Program-made: the position numbers and the translations under genes
Shown: positions 10,699 to 24,594 of the stretch, piece after piece
Position numbering within the stretch: the stretch's first letter is position 1
Layout: the number at the start of each line of letters is the position of its first letter
From: Eubacteriales bacterium
GTDB taxonomy: Bacteria > Bacillota > Clostridia > Saccharofermentanales > DTU023
Assembly: GCA_030537595.1 (NCBI GenBank)
Contig: JAUNVR010000003.1
Span: 61,898 to 100,104 of the forward strand
Reading direction: 5' to 3'
Length of the DNA stretch: 38,207 bases
The notes under the pieces: generated by a model
The model's database searches: none
Told to the model about the DNA's origin: nothing
The model's input: the letters and a program-made list of their open reading frames with translations, nothing else

Positions 10699-10705
10699 GT
10701 GAAGG

Positions 10706-10732
10706 CTAGCACTCAAAGCATGCGAGTGCTAA
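10706..10732 (+). promoter_or_regulatory. CIRCE operator (HrcA binding site)
   Basis: CTAGCACTC - nine bases - GAGTGCTAA, one mismatch from the consensus TTAGCACTC-N9-GAGTGCTAA. It marks heat-shock repression of groESL by HrcA, whose gene is not in this window. Confidence 0.96.
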
Positions 10733-10794
10733 AGTTCACAAAAAACTGCCTTAGCGCAGTAGAAATAAACGAAGAGTCCAGGAGGGTATTCATT

Positions 10795-15733: not shown

Positions 15734-17752
15734 TTAGCGTTGGAGTGACTCGAGACTTTCACAGAGCTTGAAATAGAGTTCTGTGAGGGCTTTTTCACGT
15801 TCTAAAATGGCCGCGTACTCAGAGTAGATGGCCTCGCTTTTGGCCTCAGTGAAACGAGCCTCGAGTTCTTGGGCACTGCTGGACAATTGATCTACAGTTT
15901 CTAAAATCTCAGTACTAATTATTTTAGCCTTAGCCCGGTACTGCCTTTGCTCGACAGCTTTTTGGACAGACTTGGGTAGGGTTTTAAGTTCGGGCCAAAG
16001 TTTGAGCTCTGCATCAGACCACTGCCTGATTGCACTCTCGCTTTCTGGCTCCTCCGCTTTTACTGTGGAAGTCAAAGTAGCACGCTCTGCCTGCGCTTCG
16101 CTTTTTTCTTGCAGCTCCAACTGGCGTTCTTCCTCGCGGAAACGACGGCTGGCCTTGCGGTAAGTCTGGTAGTCCTTAAAACTTTCAATCTTTTGGCCGA
16201 GGAAGGCGAGGATTTCAAAGTCCAGCTTGGCCAAGAAGTGACGGTCGTGGGAGACACATAGGAGTGCGCCATTAAACTCTTCCAAAGCGTTTTCTAAGAC
16301 TTCCTTGGACTTTAAGTCGAGGTGGTTTGTCGGTTCATCCAAAATTAATAAATCAGGCTGCTCCAGGAGAATTAAGAGCAGATTTAAGCGTGTTCTTTCG
16401 CCGCCTGAGAGTTGGCGCAGACTTTTAAAGACCTCGATATCGTAAAAGGCAAAGCGGGCCAGGAGGGCACGGGCGGAAGCTTCCGGAATCTCTGGAAAAC
16501 GAAATCGGACTTCAGCAAGTAGAGTTCTATCTTCATTCGAGAAGCTAACTCTTTGTTCCAAGCTAGCCATGCTTAAATCATGCCCATAGCGCAATTGACC
16601 GGAAAATTCTTTTAATTCGCCAGCAAGGCCTTTCAAGAGTGAACTCTTACCACAGCCATTGGGTCCGAGAATAGCAATTCGCTGGCCTGCCCGGAGGACG
16701 AAGTCAAAATCTTTAAAGAGGGGGCCTGTTCCGTAATCGACACTGAGCTTTTGCCCGAGCATTAAGACGCGATCGGAACGCCGACTGTCTTCGCTGCGCG
16801 CGAGCTTAAAGTTCAATTGCCGATCCTCTTCTAATTTCAGAGCCTGGAGCTCGGCGATTTGGCTTTTTAATTTATCGGCCTTTTTCAGCCGGGAATGGTA
16901 GCCAGATATATTGCGATGTGAGAGGAAGGTCTGGGCTACTTCCTTTTCCTTGCGGTACTCAGTTTCGGCCTTAGTAAGCTGCAATTGGCGCTCGTGTTCA
17001 CGGGCTGCATTCCAGCGTAAGCGATCGCTATAGTTACCGGCATGTGAGATTAGTTTTCCAGCCTCAATAGCCACTGTGCGATTTGCTACTGCATCGATTA
17101 AGCTGCGGTCGTGGGAGACGAAAATTAAGCACTTATTCGTCTTTTGGAGAAAATCCTCAAGCCACTCGATGCCATCTGCATCCAAGTGGTTAGTCGGTTC
17201 GTCTAGGACTAGGCAGTCTGCTCGAGAGCAGAGAATCTTGGCCATCGCAGCCCGCATCATCTCGCCACCAGAAAGGGTTGAAATCGGGGCATACAGCTTT
17301 TCTTCCGCTAGACCGAGAGCTGCTGCGTGGATTTTTATTTCATCGAGGGCGGCATATGCACCCAGGCTTTCAAATTCAGCCAGGGCCTGATTATAGCTTT
17401 GTAGGAGGGCTGGGGACTGGGCTCTTGCCAGTGCCTGACTCAGCTCCTTCATGCGCTGTTCGGCGCGACGTAAGGGGAGGAGGTCTATGATGCTCTCTTG
17501 TGACCTACTCTGCGTTATTTCCTGGGGTAGGTATTCAGCTAAAACATCCTGTCCCCACTCATAGGGCGGGTTGACGCTGGAACTTTCTTCCAAGCCCATA
17601 ATAATCCTCAGAAGGGTGCTTTTACCGGAGCCATTTTGGCCAAGAATGGCCAGCTTATCTCCGGGCATCACTGTGCAATCGGCACCGCTGAAGATTTCCC
17701 GATTCTGGTAGCTTTTATGTAAATCTTTAATTCTAAGGATCATGTGGCTCAT
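15734..17752 (-). CDS. ABC-F family ATPase (translation factor type)
   Basis: A 672-residue soluble protein with two ATP-binding domains and no membrane segment, the ABC-F layout of ribosome-binding factors. Motifs: Walker A GQNGSGKS (38-45) and GPNGCGKS (363-370), signatures LSGGE (160-164 and 448-452), and LDEPTNHLD (183-191 and 471-479). The charged linker (about 245-315) that reaches the tRNA sites is present. The C-terminal ~140 residues form a charged coiled coil, as in Uup/YdiF. It cannot be placed in an antibiotic-resistance subfamily by eye. No SD precedes the ATG at 17752; a second ATG at 17743 (MILRIKDL) is the more family-like start. It ends 27 bp from the convergent DtxR-type gene. 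Confidence 0.9.
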   Translation of the reverse strand: MSHMILRIKDLHKSYQNREIFSGADCTVMPGDKLAILGQNGSGKSTLLRIIMGLEESSSVNPPYEWGQDVLAEYLPQEITQSRSQESIIDLLPLRRAEQRMKELSQALARAQSPALLQSYNQALAEFESLGAYAALDEIKIHAAALGLAEEKLYAPISTLSGGEMMRAAMAKILCSRADCLVLDEPTNHLDADGIEWLEDFLQKTNKCLIFVSHDRSLIDAVANRTVAIEAGKLISHAGNYSDRLRWNAAREHERQLQLTKAETEYRKEKEVAQTFLSHRNISGYHSRLKKADKLKSQIAELQALKLEEDRQLNFKLARSEDSRRSDRVLMLGQKLSVDYGTGPLFKDFDFVLRAGQRIAILGPNGCGKSSLLKGLAGELKEFSGQLRYGHDLSMASLEQRVSFSNEDRTLLAEVRFRFPEIPEASARALLARFAFYDIEVFKSLRQLSGGERTRLNLLLILLEQPDLLILDEPTNHLDLKSKEVLENALEEFNGALLCVSHDRHFLAKLDFEILAFLGQKIESFKDYQTYRKASRRFREEERQLELQEKSEAQAERATLTSTVKAEEPESESAIRQWSDAELKLWPELKTLPKSVQKAVEQRQYRAKAKIISTEILETVDQLSSSAQELEARFTEAKSEAIYSEYAAILEREKALTELYFKLCESLESLQR

Positions 17753-17780
17753 TTTAAGCTAAGCCCAGGAGGCTAAGCAA
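17751..17780 (-). promoter_or_regulatory. Putative promoter overlapping the ABC-F start codon
   Basis: On the minus strand TTGCTT (17775-17780), an 18-bp spacer and TAAAAT (17751-17756) can be read. The -10 overlaps the first ATG, and the second ATG (17743) begins 7 nt downstream of it. Confidence 0.35.
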
Positions 17781-17823
17781 GTTCTCGGCAGCAGCTTGTC
17801 CTGCCTCAGTTTGATTGAGTTCT

Positions 17824-17856
17824 AAAAAAGCCCCACAGCGAATGCTGGAGGGCTTT
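17824..17856 (-). terminator. Terminator of tRNA-Gln
   Basis: On the minus strand AAAGCCC (17850-17856) pairs with GGGCTTT (17827-17833), with a further imperfect inner stem, followed by a run of T residues down to 17824. It lies just downstream of the tRNA. Confidence 0.8.
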
Positions 17857-17859
17857 AGC

Positions 17860-17933
17860 TGGCAGCCGAACTAGGATTCGAACCTAGGCTAACTGAGTCA
17901 GAGTCAGGTGTGCTACCGTTACACTATTCGGCT
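17860..17933 (-). tRNA. tRNA-Gln (anticodon CUG)
   Basis: A complete cloverleaf on the minus strand. Acceptor AGCCGAA pairs with TTCGGCT, the D stem is GTGT/GCAC, the anticodon loop CTCTGAC gives anticodon CTG, and the T arm is CTAGG-TTCGAAT-CCTAG. Discriminator G and an encoded CCA follow. The outermost anticodon-stem pair (C-T) is a mismatch. It reads CAG codons. Confidence 0.93.
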
Positions 17934-17965
17934 ATCTTTCTTATCCCGTCTGGGTCAAAAGCTTT

Positions 17966-18044
17966 AGCGCCAAGTCAAGGCGCTGACTCAAGCCGACTTA
18001 AACGGAACGTATTGAATATTAGCATGCCAATTTAAATCTTGCAA
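17966..18044 (-). promoter_or_regulatory. Putative promoter and leader of tRNA-Gln
   Basis: On the minus strand TTGCAA (18039-18044), a 17-bp spacer and TGC-TAATAT (-10 at 18016-18021) form a good extended promoter. The roughly 75-nt leader contains an AGCGCC/GGCGCT hairpin (about 17966-17984). Confidence 0.55.
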
Positions 18045-18072
18045 GATGCAAAATTAATCCTTGGCATCTTGC
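18041..18072. repeat. 9-bp inverted repeat
   Basis: GCAAGATGC (18041-18049) and GCATCTTGC (18064-18072) are separated by 14 nt. The left arm overlaps the -35 region of the tRNA-Gln promoter. It lies in a 382-bp gene-free stretch (17934-18315) that otherwise holds the tRNA promoter and the symporter leader. Confidence 0.5.
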
Positions 18073-18187
18073 TTCAGCTAGCTTTGATTGAATTTCAAAT
18101 AAATGCATAAGGAATTATAACTAAGCCCAGCATTCAGGTATTTTGAGATTAAATATACGAAATATTAATATTTTCTCGGAAAATCAA

Positions 18188-18216
18188 TTGCTTTTGTTAA
18201 AAATAACTGATAAATT
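18188..18216 (+). promoter_or_regulatory. Putative promoter of the symporter gene
   Basis: TTGCTT (18188-18193) and TAAATT (18211-18216) are 17 bp apart; an overlapping alternative is TTGTTA (18194-18199) and TATATC (18216-18221) 16 bp apart. Either would start RNA at the beginning of the folded leader. Confidence 0.35.
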
Positions 18217-18218
18217 AT

Positions 18219-18285
18219 ATCTTGGCTGTTGAAAATTTTCGTCATATGTGGTCACTAGGGTTACATATAACGCTGCAGCCAAGAT
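18219..18285 (+). ncRNA. Structured 5' leader of the symporter gene, unknown class
   Basis: ATCTTGGCTG (18219-18228) pairs perfectly with CAGCCAAGAT (18276-18285), enclosing a second helix ATATGT/ACATAT (18244-18249 with 18263-18268) with a 13-nt loop GGTCACTAGGGTT. Joining strands are 15 nt and 7 nt. No T-run follows, and the SD lies about 20 nt downstream. It does not match the glycine, purine, preQ1 or fluoride riboswitch cores I know. A protein-binding dyad in DNA is the alternative. Confidence 0.5.
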
Positions 18286-18315
18286 GGAGATCATAAAAGA
18301 AAAGGTGGTTTATCT

Positions 18316-19707
18316 ATGGGTCTAATTGATTTTATTAACAAGATAGACGGTGTCTTAGGTGGCATTCTTTTAGTCATCTTGTTACTCGGTTGTGGTCTTT
18401 TCTTCACCTTTGTACTCCGTGGAGTACAGTTCAGGTACTTCTTTAGGGCCTTCAAACTGATGTTTGGTGGTTTCACAAAGAAGGATGGTGATGATGAGGG
18501 AAGCTTATCCTCATTCCAGGCCTTGTCAACCGCAGTCGCAGCTCAGGTCGGTACCGGTAACGTCGGTGGTGTTGCTACCGCTATTGCAGCCGGTGGCCCG
18601 GGTGCGATTTTCTGGATGTGGATTACCGCAATCCTCGGAATGCCGACGATCTTTGCTGAGGCAGTTCTCGCACAGAAGTTCAGAGTCCGTAAGGATGGCA
18701 ACCTCGTTGGCGGCCCGGCCTTCTATATCTCAGAAGGTGTCGGCAAAAAGAATCGTGGTTTAGGTAAGTTCCTAGCCGGTTTCTTCGCAGTCGCAATTAT
18801 TCTGGCACTGGGTATTGCCGGTAACATGGTTCAGGCCAACTCAATCTCTTTGGCCGTAAATACCTCTTTCGGTATCCCAACCTGGCTGATTGGTGTCGCT
18901 CTGGCAGCTTTGGCAGCAGCGGTATTTATCGGTGGAGTTAAGAGAATCGGTCGCTTTGCTGAGATTGTTGTTCCGTTCATGGCAGTTCTCTACATCATTG
19001 CTTCCATCGTCCTCTTAATCAAATTCAGATCACATCTCGGAACCGCCTTTGGTGAGATTTTCCGTGGCGCATTCACCCCTGCAGCAGCAGCCGGTGGTTT
19101 TGCTGGTGCGGTAGTCCGTCAGGCAATTCGCTTTGGTGTCCAACGTGGTCTCTTCTCAAACGAAGCTGGTATGGGTTCAACCCCACACGCACACGCTGTT
19201 GCTAGTGTTAATCACCCGGCAGAGCAGGGCTTAATCGCCTTCTGTGGTGTCTTTATTGATACAGTTCTCGTCTGCTCCGCAACAGCTCTGGCAATTCTCG
19301 TTACCGACGCCTATAAGGTTCCTGGTAAGGAGAGTGTGGCAATTACCCAAGAAGCCTTTAGCATTGGCTTCGGTAATGCAGGTGCTGGTTTCTTAGCAAT
19401 TTGCTTAACCTTCTTCGCCTTTACCACGATTATTGGCTGGTACTACTTCGGCGAATCTAACGTAATTTACCTCTTTGGCCAGAAGGGTCTAACCCCCTAT
19501 CGTATCTTCGTCGTACTGGCAGTTATCTTTGGTTCAATCACCAAGGTTGAATTCGTCTGGGCACTCAATGCCTTGCTCAATAACTTGATGGTTTACCCCA
19601 ACGTGATTGCCCTCTTTATCTTGACTCCGATTGTGGCCAATATCTACAAGGACTACAACAAGTGCTTGAAGGCCGGCAAGGTACATTACGATTACGAAGT
19701 TAAGTAG
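18316..19707 (+). CDS. Sodium:alanine/glycine symporter (AGCS family)
   Basis: A 463-residue secondary transporter taking up alanine or glycine with sodium, with about 11 membrane helices. Family landmarks are clear: SLSSFQALSTAVAAQVGTGNVGGVATAI (sodium and substrate site in the first helices), GGPGAIFWMWITAILGMPT, GGPAFYISEGV, then FGVQRGLFSNEAGMGSTPHAHA, the AGCS signature. Length is normal. SD AAGGTGG precedes the ATG. The gene is alone, with its own terminator and a strongly structured leader. The choice between alanine and glycine as main substrate cannot be made. Confidence 0.95.
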   Translation: MGLIDFINKIDGVLGGILLVILLLGCGLFFTFVLRGVQFRYFFRAFKLMFGGFTKKDGDDEGSLSSFQALSTAVAAQVGTGNVGGVATAIAAGGPGAIFWMWITAILGMPTIFAEAVLAQKFRVRKDGNLVGGPAFYISEGVGKKNRGLGKFLAGFFAVAIILALGIAGNMVQANSISLAVNTSFGIPTWLIGVALAALAAAVFIGGVKRIGRFAEIVVPFMAVLYIIASIVLLIKFRSHLGTAFGEIFRGAFTPAAAAGGFAGAVVRQAIRFGVQRGLFSNEAGMGSTPHAHAVASVNHPAEQGLIAFCGVFIDTVLVCSATALAILVTDAYKVPGKESVAITQEAFSIGFGNAGAGFLAICLTFFAFTTIIGWYYFGESNVIYLFGQKGLTPYRIFVVLAVIFGSITKVEFVWALNALLNNLMVYPNVIALFILTPIVANIYKDYNKCLKAGKVHYDYEVK

Positions 19708-19776: not shown

Positions 19777-19903
19777 ATGCTTTTACTATGGTAGGATATA
19801 GTTGATTTAGGCTTCAAAGGCCTGAAACGCAGTAATTATATGCCCGATTATGCTCAGCTCTTTTGGAGCTGGAAGGCAATTTTTTGAAGGGAGAGAGGCA
19901 GTT

Positions 19904-20593
19904 TTGGCACAGCGTATTTTTATTGTTGAAGATGATTCAGACCTGGCGCATGCAATCGCCTCGACCCTTGAAAGCTGGCAATTCGAGGCCAAAATTTGCA
20001 GCGATTTTGAAAATGTTTTAACAGAGCTGCATACCTTTAATCCACAATTAATCTTGCTCGACATTAACCTCCCCCTCTTTAATGGCTACCATTGGTGTAC
20101 CAGAATTCGCGAGGAATCACAGCTGCCAATTATGATTGTCTCCGCCAAGACTGACCCTTTGAATCAGGTGATGGGTCTGGAGCTGGGCGCAGACGACTAC
20201 CTAGAAAAACCATTCTCAGCGAAGGTCCTGGTAGCTAAGGTTAAGGCCTTATTGCGCCGAACTTACACCTACACTGAGAATGATGCTAGCCTCGACTATG
20301 CTGGATTGAGCCTGGAGCCTGAAGCTGCGAGAGTAACTTACGCTGGGCGGAAAGCCAATCTGTCTCTCAATGAATTGCGAATCTTAGCCCAGCTTCTAGC
20401 TGCAAAGGGCAGTTTTGTGAGCCGCGATAAACTGATTGCAGAGCTTTGGGGTCAGAGTGAATTCGTTTCTGACAACACGCTATCAGTAAATCTCTCACGC
20501 CTGCGCAAGAAGCTAAGCGACTTAATCGGTTACGATATAATAATTTCCAAAAAGGGTCTCGGCTACGCAGTAAGAGAGGGTGGTGCGGAGTAG
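19904..20593 (+). CDS. BceR-type response regulator (OmpR family)
   Basis: A 229-residue response regulator. The receiver domain has acidic Asp10/Asp11, phospho-acceptor Asp53 in LILLDINLP, and Lys102 in LEKPF. The C-terminal winged helix (about 130-225) has the OmpR pattern ELRILAQLLAAKGSFVSRDKL and DNTLSVNLSRLRKKL. The start is set at TTG 19904 because GAGAGG lies 5 nt upstream and the protein then begins as receivers do (MAQRIFIVEDD); the in-frame ATG at 19850 adds 18 unlikely residues and lacks an SD. It is followed without a gap by the kinase. It would activate the downstream transporter genes in response to peptide antibiotics. Confidence 0.9.
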   Translation: MAQRIFIVEDDSDLAHAIASTLESWQFEAKICSDFENVLTELHTFNPQLILLDINLPLFNGYHWCTRIREESQLPIMIVSAKTDPLNQVMGLELGADDYLEKPFSAKVLVAKVKALLRRTYTYTENDASLDYAGLSLEPEAARVTYAGRKANLSLNELRILAQLLAAKGSFVSRDKLIAELWGQSEFVSDNTLSVNLSRLRKKLSDLIGYDIIISKKGLGYAVREGGAE

Positions 20594-21625
20594 ATGTTTA
20601 AAAAATCCTTTGACAAGGGCGCTGACAGAGCAAAGAAAGCAGGACGGATTTTCTCGCTTAGGCGCTTTTTCTTAAAGCATTTATCCCTCATCTTATATGC
20701 CTTAGGCACATTTATAATTTTACTGATCTTTACTTGGCTGTTCTACTTGCCCTCTTATGTTATAGGCTACGGTGCCTTGCTCTTATTCGCAGCTTTAATT
20801 GCATTTTTAGCTCTGGAATACTATCGCGAGCGCAAGCTCCTCTCTTGGCTGCGCGATTTTTCTGCTGCCGCCCAAAATCTCTCGCTGGAATCTTTGCAGG
20901 ACTTAAGTAATTCTGAGTATCTGTTAATTTCTGCAAGCTTAAAGGAGTGGGAGAGAATAGCTGAACTCAGGCGTGAGATGCGCGAATCACAAAGCGCTTA
21001 TCAGGACTATTTTGCCTTGTGGCTACATCGGATGAAGACGCCTTTGGCCGTTTTGAAATTACATCTGGAAAGCGCCGGCTTGGAGCGGCAAAACTTAATT
21101 GACAGTAAACTCAACGAAGTAGAAAGATATGCGAACCTAGCCCTAGTCTATGTCAATTTACAAGACAGTGAGCGCAGCCTGGAGCTGGAGCGTTTTGACT
21201 TAGCTGATTTATTAGAGAGTCTAATTAAGCGTCTAGAAGCCTACGCAGAAGCCCAGCAAGTAAAAGTGGAACTCGAGCTTGAAGGATTAAAAATTCATGC
21301 CGACCGTCTCCGCCTCAGCCTGGCGATTGAACAGTTTTTAGTCAACGCTTATAAATATGGTCATGGCCAAAGCGTGGAAGTCAAAATCGAGGCCGGAAAA
21401 CTTAGGATCCAGGACCATGGCCCAGGGATTCCTGAATACCTCTTGCCCCGAGTTCAGTCCCGTGGATTTGCCGGTTCGCAAGGTGAATTGCGCTATCAAT
21501 CCTCCGGACTCGGACTCTACCTAGCACGCCGCCTCTTAGCTGATATGGGCCTAGACTATATTTTGATTTCTGCACCGGGGGAGGGCTGTGAGGTGCAGAT
21601 TGATTTTCACGACATTATCGCCTAA
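20594..21625 (+). CDS. BceS-type intramembrane-sensing histidine kinase
   Basis: A 343-residue membrane kinase. Two helices (about 29-51 and 57-76) are separated by only a few residues, so there is no extracellular sensor domain, the mark of intramembrane-sensing kinases that rely on a partner ABC transporter. The phospho-acceptor is His145 in FALWLHRMKTPLAVLKLHL. ATPase motifs follow: N box around EQFLVNAYKYG, G1 IQDHGPGIP and G2 SSGLGLYLARRL. The ATG directly follows the regulator's stop codon. Linkage with the BceAB-type transporter genes downstream gives the function: relay of transporter state to the regulator. Confidence 0.92.
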   Translation: MFKKSFDKGADRAKKAGRIFSLRRFFLKHLSLILYALGTFIILLIFTWLFYLPSYVIGYGALLLFAALIAFLALEYYRERKLLSWLRDFSAAAQNLSLESLQDLSNSEYLLISASLKEWERIAELRREMRESQSAYQDYFALWLHRMKTPLAVLKLHLESAGLERQNLIDSKLNEVERYANLALVYVNLQDSERSLELERFDLADLLESLIKRLEAYAEAQQVKVELELEGLKIHADRLRLSLAIEQFLVNAYKYGHGQSVEVKIEAGKLRIQDHGPGIPEYLLPRVQSRGFAGSQGELRYQSSGLGLYLARRLLADMGLDYILISAPGEGCEVQIDFHDIIA

Positions 21626-21626
21626 G

Positions 21627-21640
21627 TGACAAAAATGTAA
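21627..21640 (+). promoter_or_regulatory. BceR-type binding site upstream of the transporter genes
   Basis: TGACA-AAAA-TGTAA fits the motif TNACA-N4-TGTAA that I recall being reported for BceR-like regulators. A second TGTAA half-site lies 20 bp (two helical turns) downstream at 21656-21660. A good -10, TATAAG (21692-21697), has no proper -35, as expected for an activated promoter. Confidence 0.65.
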
Positions 21641-21728
21641 GCTTTAACTCTCTGCTGTAAGCTTAGATGAAGGTAGGGCTAAGAATTTTCCTATAAGCTT
21701 GGGTTAATGGCGAAAGGAGTGTTCTTTC

Positions 21729-22505
21729 ATGGAAAATATTTTAGAAATTAAAGGGCTCGAGAGAGTTTATAAGGAACGTTTTTCAACCCAAGTCACCCGG
21801 GCATTACAGGGAATTAATCTGAATGTTGCAGCTGGTGAATTCTTAGTTATCATGGGTGAGTCGGGCTCCGGCAAGAGCACCTTGTTAAATTTGATTGCGA
21901 CCTTGGATCGGCCGACAGCTGGTGAGATCAAATACAAAGGAGCGCTTTTAAATCGGCTCTCAAATGCAGATTTAGCTGAGTTCAGACGCCGCGAGATGGG
22001 CTTTGTCTTCCAGGACTTTAATCTTTTAGAGCAATTTAATATTGCCGATAATATCCGTTTACCAATGGTCCTAGATGGAATTCCAGGGGATGAAATGGAA
22101 AGAAGATTGAGCCACTATGCGAATATCTTAAAGATTCATAAACAGCTAAATAAGTACCCCTATGAGCTTTCAGGCGGTGAGCAGCAGCGTGTAGCTGTGG
22201 CGAGGGCGCTAGTCATGAAGCCCAGCATCGTGCTGGCTGATGAGCCGACCGGTGCTCTGGACTCAAAGACCTCAACCCACTTGATGGAAAGTTTTGCTGA
22301 GCTGAATGCAGCTGGCCAAACAATCCTGATGGTTACACACTCTCTGCGCGCAGCCTGCTACGGACGCAGAATCCTCTTCTTACGTGATGGGAGAATCTAC
22401 TACGAACTCTATCGTGGGAAGTTAGCGCCGGAAGACTTTAGGGAGAAAATTTCTGATGCGATGGCCTTATTAGATGCAGGGGAGGCAAGAAATGAAACGG
22501 CTTAA
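21729..22505 (+). CDS. BceA-type ABC transporter ATPase
   Basis: A 258-residue ATPase of the MacB/LolD-like group that powers the peptide-detoxifying permease encoded next. Motifs: Walker A GESGSGKS (43-50), Q-loop FVFQDFN, signature LSGGEQQRVAVARAL, Walker B VLADEPTGALD and an H-loop THS. The C-terminal ~35 residues (YRGKLAPEDFREKISDAMALLD) are longer than in simple LolD proteins and resemble BceA. SD AAAGGAG precedes the ATG. Its 3' end overlaps the permease start by 14 nt, so the two are translationally coupled. The 103-bp gap after the kinase gene contains the regulator site. Confidence 0.95.
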   Translation: MENILEIKGLERVYKERFSTQVTRALQGINLNVAAGEFLVIMGESGSGKSTLLNLIATLDRPTAGEIKYKGALLNRLSNADLAEFRRREMGFVFQDFNLLEQFNIADNIRLPMVLDGIPGDEMERRLSHYANILKIHKQLNKYPYELSGGEQQRVAVARALVMKPSIVLADEPTGALDSKTSTHLMESFAELNAAGQTILMVTHSLRAACYGRRILFLRDGRIYYELYRGKLAPEDFREKISDAMALLDAGEARNETA

Positions 22506-24594
22506 ATTATATTGGAAATTAAGCTGGAAGAATTTTCGCTCATATAAGCGCTTATACCGGCCATTAATCATCGCCGCAGGAACTCTTTTAATGATGTTTC
22601 TGCTGCTTAATTCAATCAAGGATATCTTTAATCTAGAAACTCGTCAGATTGGTCTTTTCATCAGCTTTGGCAGTATTGTTATCAGTGTATTTTCGCTGCT
22701 TTTTATCAGCTTTGCCAGACGCTTTATTCTCCGGCAAAGGGGTAAGGAAATGGGGCTTTACACCGCTTTGGGCCTTGGTAAAAAGGAGTTTTCAGTAATC
22801 TACTTCTTCGAGCTGATTTACTCCTTGCTCTTCTCGCTGGCCCTAGGTCTAGGCCTGTCTTTTATCCTAGGTCCGCTTTTTACCCTAGCTTTCCAGCGCA
22901 TGATTGAACTTCCGCTGAGCTTCAGCTGGAAACTAAGCTCTTCGAGAATCCTCTTAGGGGTGACTGTCTTCGCAGTAATCTTTGTGCTTTCCTTTATTCC
23001 TGAGTTGATTAATATCTCCAGAATGCAAGCAAAGGATATTTTCGAATCTGGGAAGCAGAGTGCGGCGCGGGTGAAGGCCAATCCCTTCCTAGCCTTGGCG
23101 GCTCTTCTTTTAATTGGTGGCGCTTACTATCTAGCTGTTACAATTGTTGACCCAGTGAAGGCTAGCGTAATATTTTTGCTCGCGATCATCATGGTGATTA
23201 TCGGGACCTATTGTTTCTACCACTCACTCCTGATTGTGATTTTAAAATTTTTACAAAAGAGAAAGTCCTTCTATCATAAGCCGCAGCATTTTATCAAGCT
23301 TTCATCGATGCTATTTAGGCTTAAAGCGCATGCCAGTGGTTTAGCCAATATCACAATATTGGCCTGTATGATCCTGGTAACTTTAACTGTAACCTTAAAC
23401 TTTTTTATCGTAATCCCAGCAAAGTCGGATTATAGCATTGTGGATAATGCGGTATCCTATAACTATTATTTCGATAGTGAGGAATCACTCGATGACCCTG
23501 AGGCTCTGACCAAATTATTACTACAGGTTCACGCAGAGGCAGAGGAGCGCAGAACAGAGCTCGTACCGGAGTTTTCAAAAGAGTTGAAGCAGATTTTAAA
23601 TCAAGGTCAAAAAACTGACGAGAATCCTAGTGGACTGGAGCTAAATTACATTAGTACCTTTAGATATCTACCGACAGAAAACTACCGCGAATATGTTTAT
23701 CTGGCGACAATTGATTCAGCAGAGCGGCTTTTTTCTAAAACTTACTCAGATGATCGAGCTTATCTATATGGTGTTGATGAGGGCTCAGAATTAGAAGCTA
23801 TATTAGAAGCAGAAACTGGTCTTAAAATTGAGCTGATTGAAGCTGCAGCTGCGCCTAGGAAGGGACTGAATTTTAATCAATTTAGTGAATCTAGATACCT
23901 TTTCATTCCAGAACAGAAGCTAGAAAGCATGCTCAGAACAAGTGTAGAGGATAGATTCGTGCCTTATCTGAATGTTAGATTCCTCTTAGGTGGAGATTTA
24001 AATACGCAGCAGCTACAGCTGATTTCCGATGAATTTTCTGAGCTCGACCATTTCCAAAAGGATATTCTGCCGGAGCTTGATGGTAGCTCAAAGTTAAAGT
24101 ACTCCTCAGCTAGTTTCGAGTCGGAGGAGCTTGATCGCCTAAGCTTCCTCACCACCTATACACTCTTCATGTTTATTGGCGTGCTCTGCGGCTTAACCTT
24201 CCTCGTCGGAATGTCTGTAATCACATGGTTTAAGCAGTTTTCAGAGGCCGAAGTCGAGCGGCGGAGAATTGCCATTATGGAGCAGATTGGCTTATCAGAG
24301 AGCGTGATCAAAAAGTCCGCGCAGTCACAGATTTACTGGCTCTTAATCCTACCGCTTTTCGTGGCAATTGTTCACTGTAGCTTTGCCCTCCCATTTATCA
24401 GAAAAGGCTTCAATGTAATCGGCGGGATGAGTAGGGATAATATCTTTACAGAAAAACTATTCCTCTCCGCTGGGATTGCATTTGCCAGCCTCCTAATTGT
24501 TTACTATATAATCTACAAACTCTCATCTAATGCCTATTGGCGCACCCTGAAGATGAGGAACAAGTATGACTTACGGGGAGCAGGGCAGAGGTAG
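22492..24594 (+). CDS. BceB-type ABC permease (FtsX-like, large extracellular domain)
   Basis: A 700-residue permease with about ten membrane helices: a first FtsX-like block (about 15-310), a long extracytoplasmic domain of about 200 residues that begins near NFFIVIPAKSDYS and runs to the region before LSFLTTYTLFMF, and a final block of three or so helices. This is the BceB architecture, in which the large loop binds peptide antibiotics or their lipid targets. Start ATG 22492 is supported by GGGGAGG 6 nt upstream; the in-frame ATG at 22474 lies before that SD. It would transfer the ligand-occupied state to the kinase. Specificity (bacitracin, nisin or other) cannot be read. Confidence 0.93.
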   Translation: MKRLKLYWKLSWKNFRSYKRLYRPLIIAAGTLLMMFLLLNSIKDIFNLETRQIGLFISFGSIVISVFSLLFISFARRFILRQRGKEMGLYTALGLGKKEFSVIYFFELIYSLLFSLALGLGLSFILGPLFTLAFQRMIELPLSFSWKLSSSRILLGVTVFAVIFVLSFIPELINISRMQAKDIFESGKQSAARVKANPFLALAALLLIGGAYYLAVTIVDPVKASVIFLLAIIMVIIGTYCFYHSLLIVILKFLQKRKSFYHKPQHFIKLSSMLFRLKAHASGLANITILACMILVTLTVTLNFFIVIPAKSDYSIVDNAVSYNYYFDSEESLDDPEALTKLLLQVHAEAEERRTELVPEFSKELKQILNQGQKTDENPSGLELNYISTFRYLPTENYREYVYLATIDSAERLFSKTYSDDRAYLYGVDEGSELEAILEAETGLKIELIEAAAAPRKGLNFNQFSESRYLFIPEQKLESMLRTSVEDRFVPYLNVRFLLGGDLNTQQLQLISDEFSELDHFQKDILPELDGSSKLKYSSASFESEELDRLSFLTTYTLFMFIGVLCGLTFLVGMSVITWFKQFSEAEVERRRIAIMEQIGLSESVIKKSAQSQIYWLLILPLFVAIVHCSFALPFIRKGFNVIGGMSRDNIFTEKLFLSAGIAFASLLIVYYIIYKLSSNAYWRTLKMRNKYDLRGAGQR

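Follow-up and report, generated by a model that had tools for sequence, protein, structure and literature searches.

The leaders of ompA, papA and aprE carry 5′-terminal stem-loops that stabilise these bacterial mRNAs. B. subtilis transcripts, too, are stabilised by a hairpin located at their 5′ end or close to it, according to a review (PMC3997798). Among 80 agcS homologues drawn from named genomes, 36 have a sense-strand glycine aptamer upstream, in agreement with the earlier note on the locus presented here, which had stated that genes of this alanine/glycine:cation symporter family are often under glycine riboswitches; a literature search combining ‘sodium alanine symporter’ with riboswitch and glycine returned no paper.

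We analysed the leader of an agcS gene in a genome of 1.55 Mb and 35 contigs (G000). The window, that is, the whole stretch of 38,207 nt that was analysed, corresponds to G000:C24:61898-100104 on a contig of 114 kb. The gene (18316-19707, plus strand) encodes a 463 aa protein that scores 482.8 bits against TIGR00835 (cut-off 272.65) and also matches PF01235, which bears out its previous naming as a sodium/amino-acid symporter gene; a second agcS copy lies on the same contig (44954-46231, minus strand). Upstream of agcS and divergent from it is a tRNA-Gln (CTG) gene (17860-17933, minus strand), and an ABC-F gene occupies 15734-17752. After agcS, genes for a response regulator, a histidine kinase, an ABC ATPase and an FtsX-like permease run in one direction (19850-24594), an order that we take to be reminiscent of Bce-type peptide-resistance modules. 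A CIRCE-like dyad (10705-10737, AGCACTC-9-GAGTGCT region) precedes genes that resemble groES and groEL by eye, presumably as expected under HrcA control.

The agcS leader contains a fold at 18219-18285 (plus strand). Its outer 10-bp helix (18219-18228 with 18276-18285), found both by inverted-repeat search and in the predicted fold, is a perfect 10-nt inverted repeat with a spacer of 47 nt; it encloses an inner 6-bp helix (ATATGT, 18244-18249, with ACATAT, 18263-18268) and a 13-nt apical loop, GGTCACTAGGGTT (18250-18262), and strands of 15 nt (18229-18243) and 7 nt (18269-18275) join the two helices. The earlier note had placed all of these elements correctly, and to its description we add a 3-bp middle helix (CGT, 18240-18242, with ACG, 18270-18272) and further pairs, mostly G-U (three of them), that partly close the apical loop, cutting it to 5 nt in the predicted fold. 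The Shine-Dalgarno-like AGGTGGT of agcS (18303-18309) lies outside the fold and is unpaired with a mean probability of 0.56-0.62 whichever of seven RNA starts is assumed and whether or not the outer helix is present. An upstream ORF of 13 codons, with its ATG at 18284, overlaps the start of agcS; it is without a Shine-Dalgarno sequence by eye and was attributed to chance. A mobile element with terminal inverted repeats was also considered and rejected, the repeat being single copy in the genome and showing no target duplication by eye. The structure resembles a local leader hairpin of an ordinary kind, or the site of a repressor, more than it does a new RNA switch.

The fold is real and its stability exceeds chance, with a minimum free energy of -23.6 kcal/mol compared with -12.2 ± 2.5 kcal/mol in 200 dinucleotide shuffles (z -4.63), none of which folded as low. 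When the same best-window choice was made in shuffled leaders, the selection-matched z was -4.24, and the fold ranked second among the 33 contig leaders that offer 140 nt of clear sequence upstream, a ranking that includes the contig's N gaps unfiltered. Both values argue against a chance or relic dyad without function, as does the finding that, among 5000 shuffled versions of the agcS leader, only 26 contain a perfect repeat 10 nt or longer with a spacer of 3-60 nt. We consider a functionless dyad unlikely, and it draws support from the contig at large, where, N runs excluded, nine perfect 10-nt repeats with spacers of 20-60 nt stand against 4.5 ± 2.1 in 30 shuffles. As a plain inverted repeat the fold is less striking, such repeats not being rare contig-wide. 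Windows at least as stable are also found within genes (376 of 13932 coding windows, which again favours a functionless dyad) and between them (802 of 12140 intergenic windows, a set that includes terminators), N gaps being left in both counts, and the fold energy by itself is not extreme among contig windows. The minus strand of the fold reaches z -5.8 versus -4.6 for the plus strand; since the opposite strand folds equally well, the comparison gives no pointer to RNA-level selection and suits a DNA dyad or chance equally. As a separate observation, the strongest leader fold on the contig lies outside the window at a minus-strand gene (G000:C24:9413-9480; z -7.9, selection-matched -5.5); it consists of nested copies of TAGTCCGAAA/TTTCGGACTA and is a tandem operator by appearance.

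An RNA start at the beginning of the fold, as proposed in the earlier note, is possible judging from the candidate promoters. By eye, TTGCTT (18188-18193) is followed after 17 nt by an extended -10 element, TGaTAAATT (hexamer 18211-18216), and this plus-strand candidate (18188-18216), with 7 of 12 consensus bases besides its TG extension, predicts a start near 18222-18224, within the outer 5′ arm. It is missing from the list of the sigma-70 scan, which returned no promoter ending at the fold; the sole plus-strand promoter of the scan, TTGAGA-17-TAATAT (18143-18171, or to 18172 in an alternative 18-nt register), would yield an RNA about 40 nt longer at its 5′ end. A rival reading, TTGTTA-16-TATATC, predicts a start near 18228. 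The three candidates imply three different starts relative to the stem, and the proposed start keeps the by-eye promoter, a weak one, on its side and has the scan against it. Folded to 18300, the leader reaches -24.3 kcal/mol from a start at 18219, -18.1 kcal/mol from 18224 and -14.2 kcal/mol from 18225 to 18230, the last group giving a structure different from the fold. If the RNA is assumed to start anywhere from 18219 to 18224, pairing takes up nearly all of its first three nucleotides (unpaired probability no higher than 0.29).

A lineage-specific stem-loop in the 5′ leader is the most economical reading, and it may stabilise the mRNA by analogy with the B. subtilis cases; that the fold is a 5′-proximal agcS stem-loop of this stabilising kind is plausible to us, if somewhat short of probable. 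With an RNA start near 18219-18224, the stem-loop would form the 5′ end of the agcS mRNA or lie close to it, where the paired first nucleotides would hinder 5′-end-dependent decay of the RppH and RNase J type, and the ribosome site 18-24 nt downstream would stay free. Most likely neither a ligand nor a conserved sequence would be required, and such a function would tolerate sequence turnover. A stable stem-loop is indeed present in the 5′ leader, before a free Shine-Dalgarno sequence. Two of the promoter candidates speak against stabilisation: a start near 18228 would remove the outer 5′ arm and leave only the -14.2 kcal/mol structure, and the scan promoter starts about 40 nt upstream.

The genus is represented by two species, and the sister genome (G008) is 68% complete. 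Its agcS protein is 80% identical and the locus is syntenic, the DNA matches between window and sister contig following the same order from window position 1149 to 38198 except at the tRNA-Gln gene. There, a stretch of 83 bp (17860-17942) is 97.6% identical to the sister genome but inverted, so that one lineage may have had its promoter region replaced through a small local inversion ahead of agcS. The fold is without trace in the syntenic G008 leader. A covariance model built from the single sequence of the fold (R1) had no match in 100 agcS loci other than the leader from which it was built and the reverse strand of that leader (19.8 bits). Beyond the source genome it gave no credible match in 38 family, 188 order, 391 class and 398 phylum genomes; matches fell in 1, 1, 2 and 1 genomes, respectively, each count including G000, in sets that overlap and of which the larger ones were filtered more strictly, such that weak homologues could be lost. 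The match in G365 (27 bits, E 0.014) runs antisense within a 660-codon ORF, MutL-like by eye, and was put down to chance. A BLASTN search of the 38 family genomes with the leader, run to E 10, returned the leader itself and otherwise only short scraps. Compared with 11 outgroup leaders and that of G008, the longest exact word common to the fold is 11 nt (TTACATATAAC, in L044) and otherwise at most 8 nt, with L051 omitted for want of upstream sequence and start codons set by a simple rule that probably misplaced the start of L046. As no homologue of the fold was found, covariation is not assessable. The earlier note had inferred a different cis-regulatory RNA, to be abandoned if relatives did not conserve it; with the fold missing in the syntenic sister, without a credible match elsewhere and hence with no conservation in relatives, we do not uphold that inference. 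The same lack of any conservation in the searched relatives is what a functionless dyad would predict.

The G008 leader has an unrelated dyad, TTCAGAGT-8 nt-ACTCTGAA (L129, 10133-10156), 24 nt before the start codon. Shuffling the 60-nt G008 leader 5000 times gave a perfect 8-nt repeat with a spacer of 3-20 nt in 89 cases, and the folding energy of this leader is ordinary (z -0.01 versus its own shuffles), which counts against a stabiliser. The dyad hints weakly that what has been retained is a hairpin or dyad and not its sequence, in keeping with a role for which a hairpin of any sequence would do.

A DNA operator, at which a putative agcS repressor would bind one dyad or two shortly after the -10 element, appears doubtful by itself; together with the functionless dyad it is a close rival of the stabilising stem-loop. 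The arms CGTCATATGT and ACATATAACG, 13 nt apart, form a 9/10 dyad whose position matches that usual for repressor operators, both strands of the fold are equally stable, and a dyad occupies roughly the same place in the sister leader. That dyad differs in sequence, which weighs against an operator, as do the different axes of the two dyads (by their coordinates, the outer is centred at 18252 and the inner at 18256) and their occurrence as single copies in the genome, searched with up to 3 mismatches for the inner and exactly for the outer dyad. An exact search of 20 genomes located the inner dyad in one place and not in G008; at up to 3 mismatches, 4 of 9 genomes matched, and a backwards control matched the same 4 plus one more, leaving no signal. 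A dyad common to other promoters or to orthologous promoters was thus not found. A single-target local regulator at the dyad is possible, and the protein-binding dyad that the earlier note had offered as an alternative stays a candidate, for which a second copy in the genome was not found.

An orphan riboswitch from outside the Rfam classes, with alanine, glycine, Na+ or some other ligand, is suggested by the aptamer-like shape of the predicted fold, with its asymmetric internal loop before a transporter gene, and by the glycine riboswitches of 36 of the 80 homologous genes. We regard it as very unlikely, given that the fold is missing in the sister despite conserved synteny, has no credible relative in the overlapping sets of 38, 188, 391 and 398 genomes and comes with no visible expression platform. 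A search with all 4227 Rfam families gave no match, and none appeared in 18100-18400 at E up to 10 either; RF00504 was unmatched at gathering and at E up to 10, confirming that no recognised riboswitch class is present and that the glycine aptamer core is absent. A glycine aptamer was found in 0 of the 12 closest homologues (L042-L053, L051 being without upstream sequence) and in 0 of 20 agcS loci of the same genome and its relatives, so the absence of a glycine riboswitch is normal for this branch. There is no terminator in 17700-18600 and no T run after the fold, and neither a terminator/antiterminator pair nor sequestration of the ribosome site is visible as a switching partner. Conserved aptamer sequence and covarying helices were not found in relatives, where the fold has no homologue. 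Nothing indicates an aptamer coupled to expression. The narrower proposal, an orphan riboswitch sensing alanine, glycine or Na+ that controls agcS in this species alone and replaces the glycine riboswitch, is slightly more improbable still; if an orphan riboswitch were real, it would be an extra regulator for a transporter family often tied to the glycine riboswitch.

A strong fold before a transporter gene should be taken as a riboswitch candidate only if relatives retain the fold. If the hairpin sets the life of the agcS mRNA, the locus would be another case of leader structure retained without sequence. Compared with glycine riboswitch loci (RF00504), the agcS leader precedes the same gene family but has neither a match nor a terminator. 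Like repressor operators downstream of the -10 element, it has inverted repeats over the expected transcription start, and unlike them it has two dyads on different axes, in single copy in the genome. With the ompA, papA and aprE leaders it shares a stable stem-loop, predicted to lie close to the 5′ end or at it, and a free ribosome site downstream, whereas the predicted agcS fold is larger and contains an internal loop.
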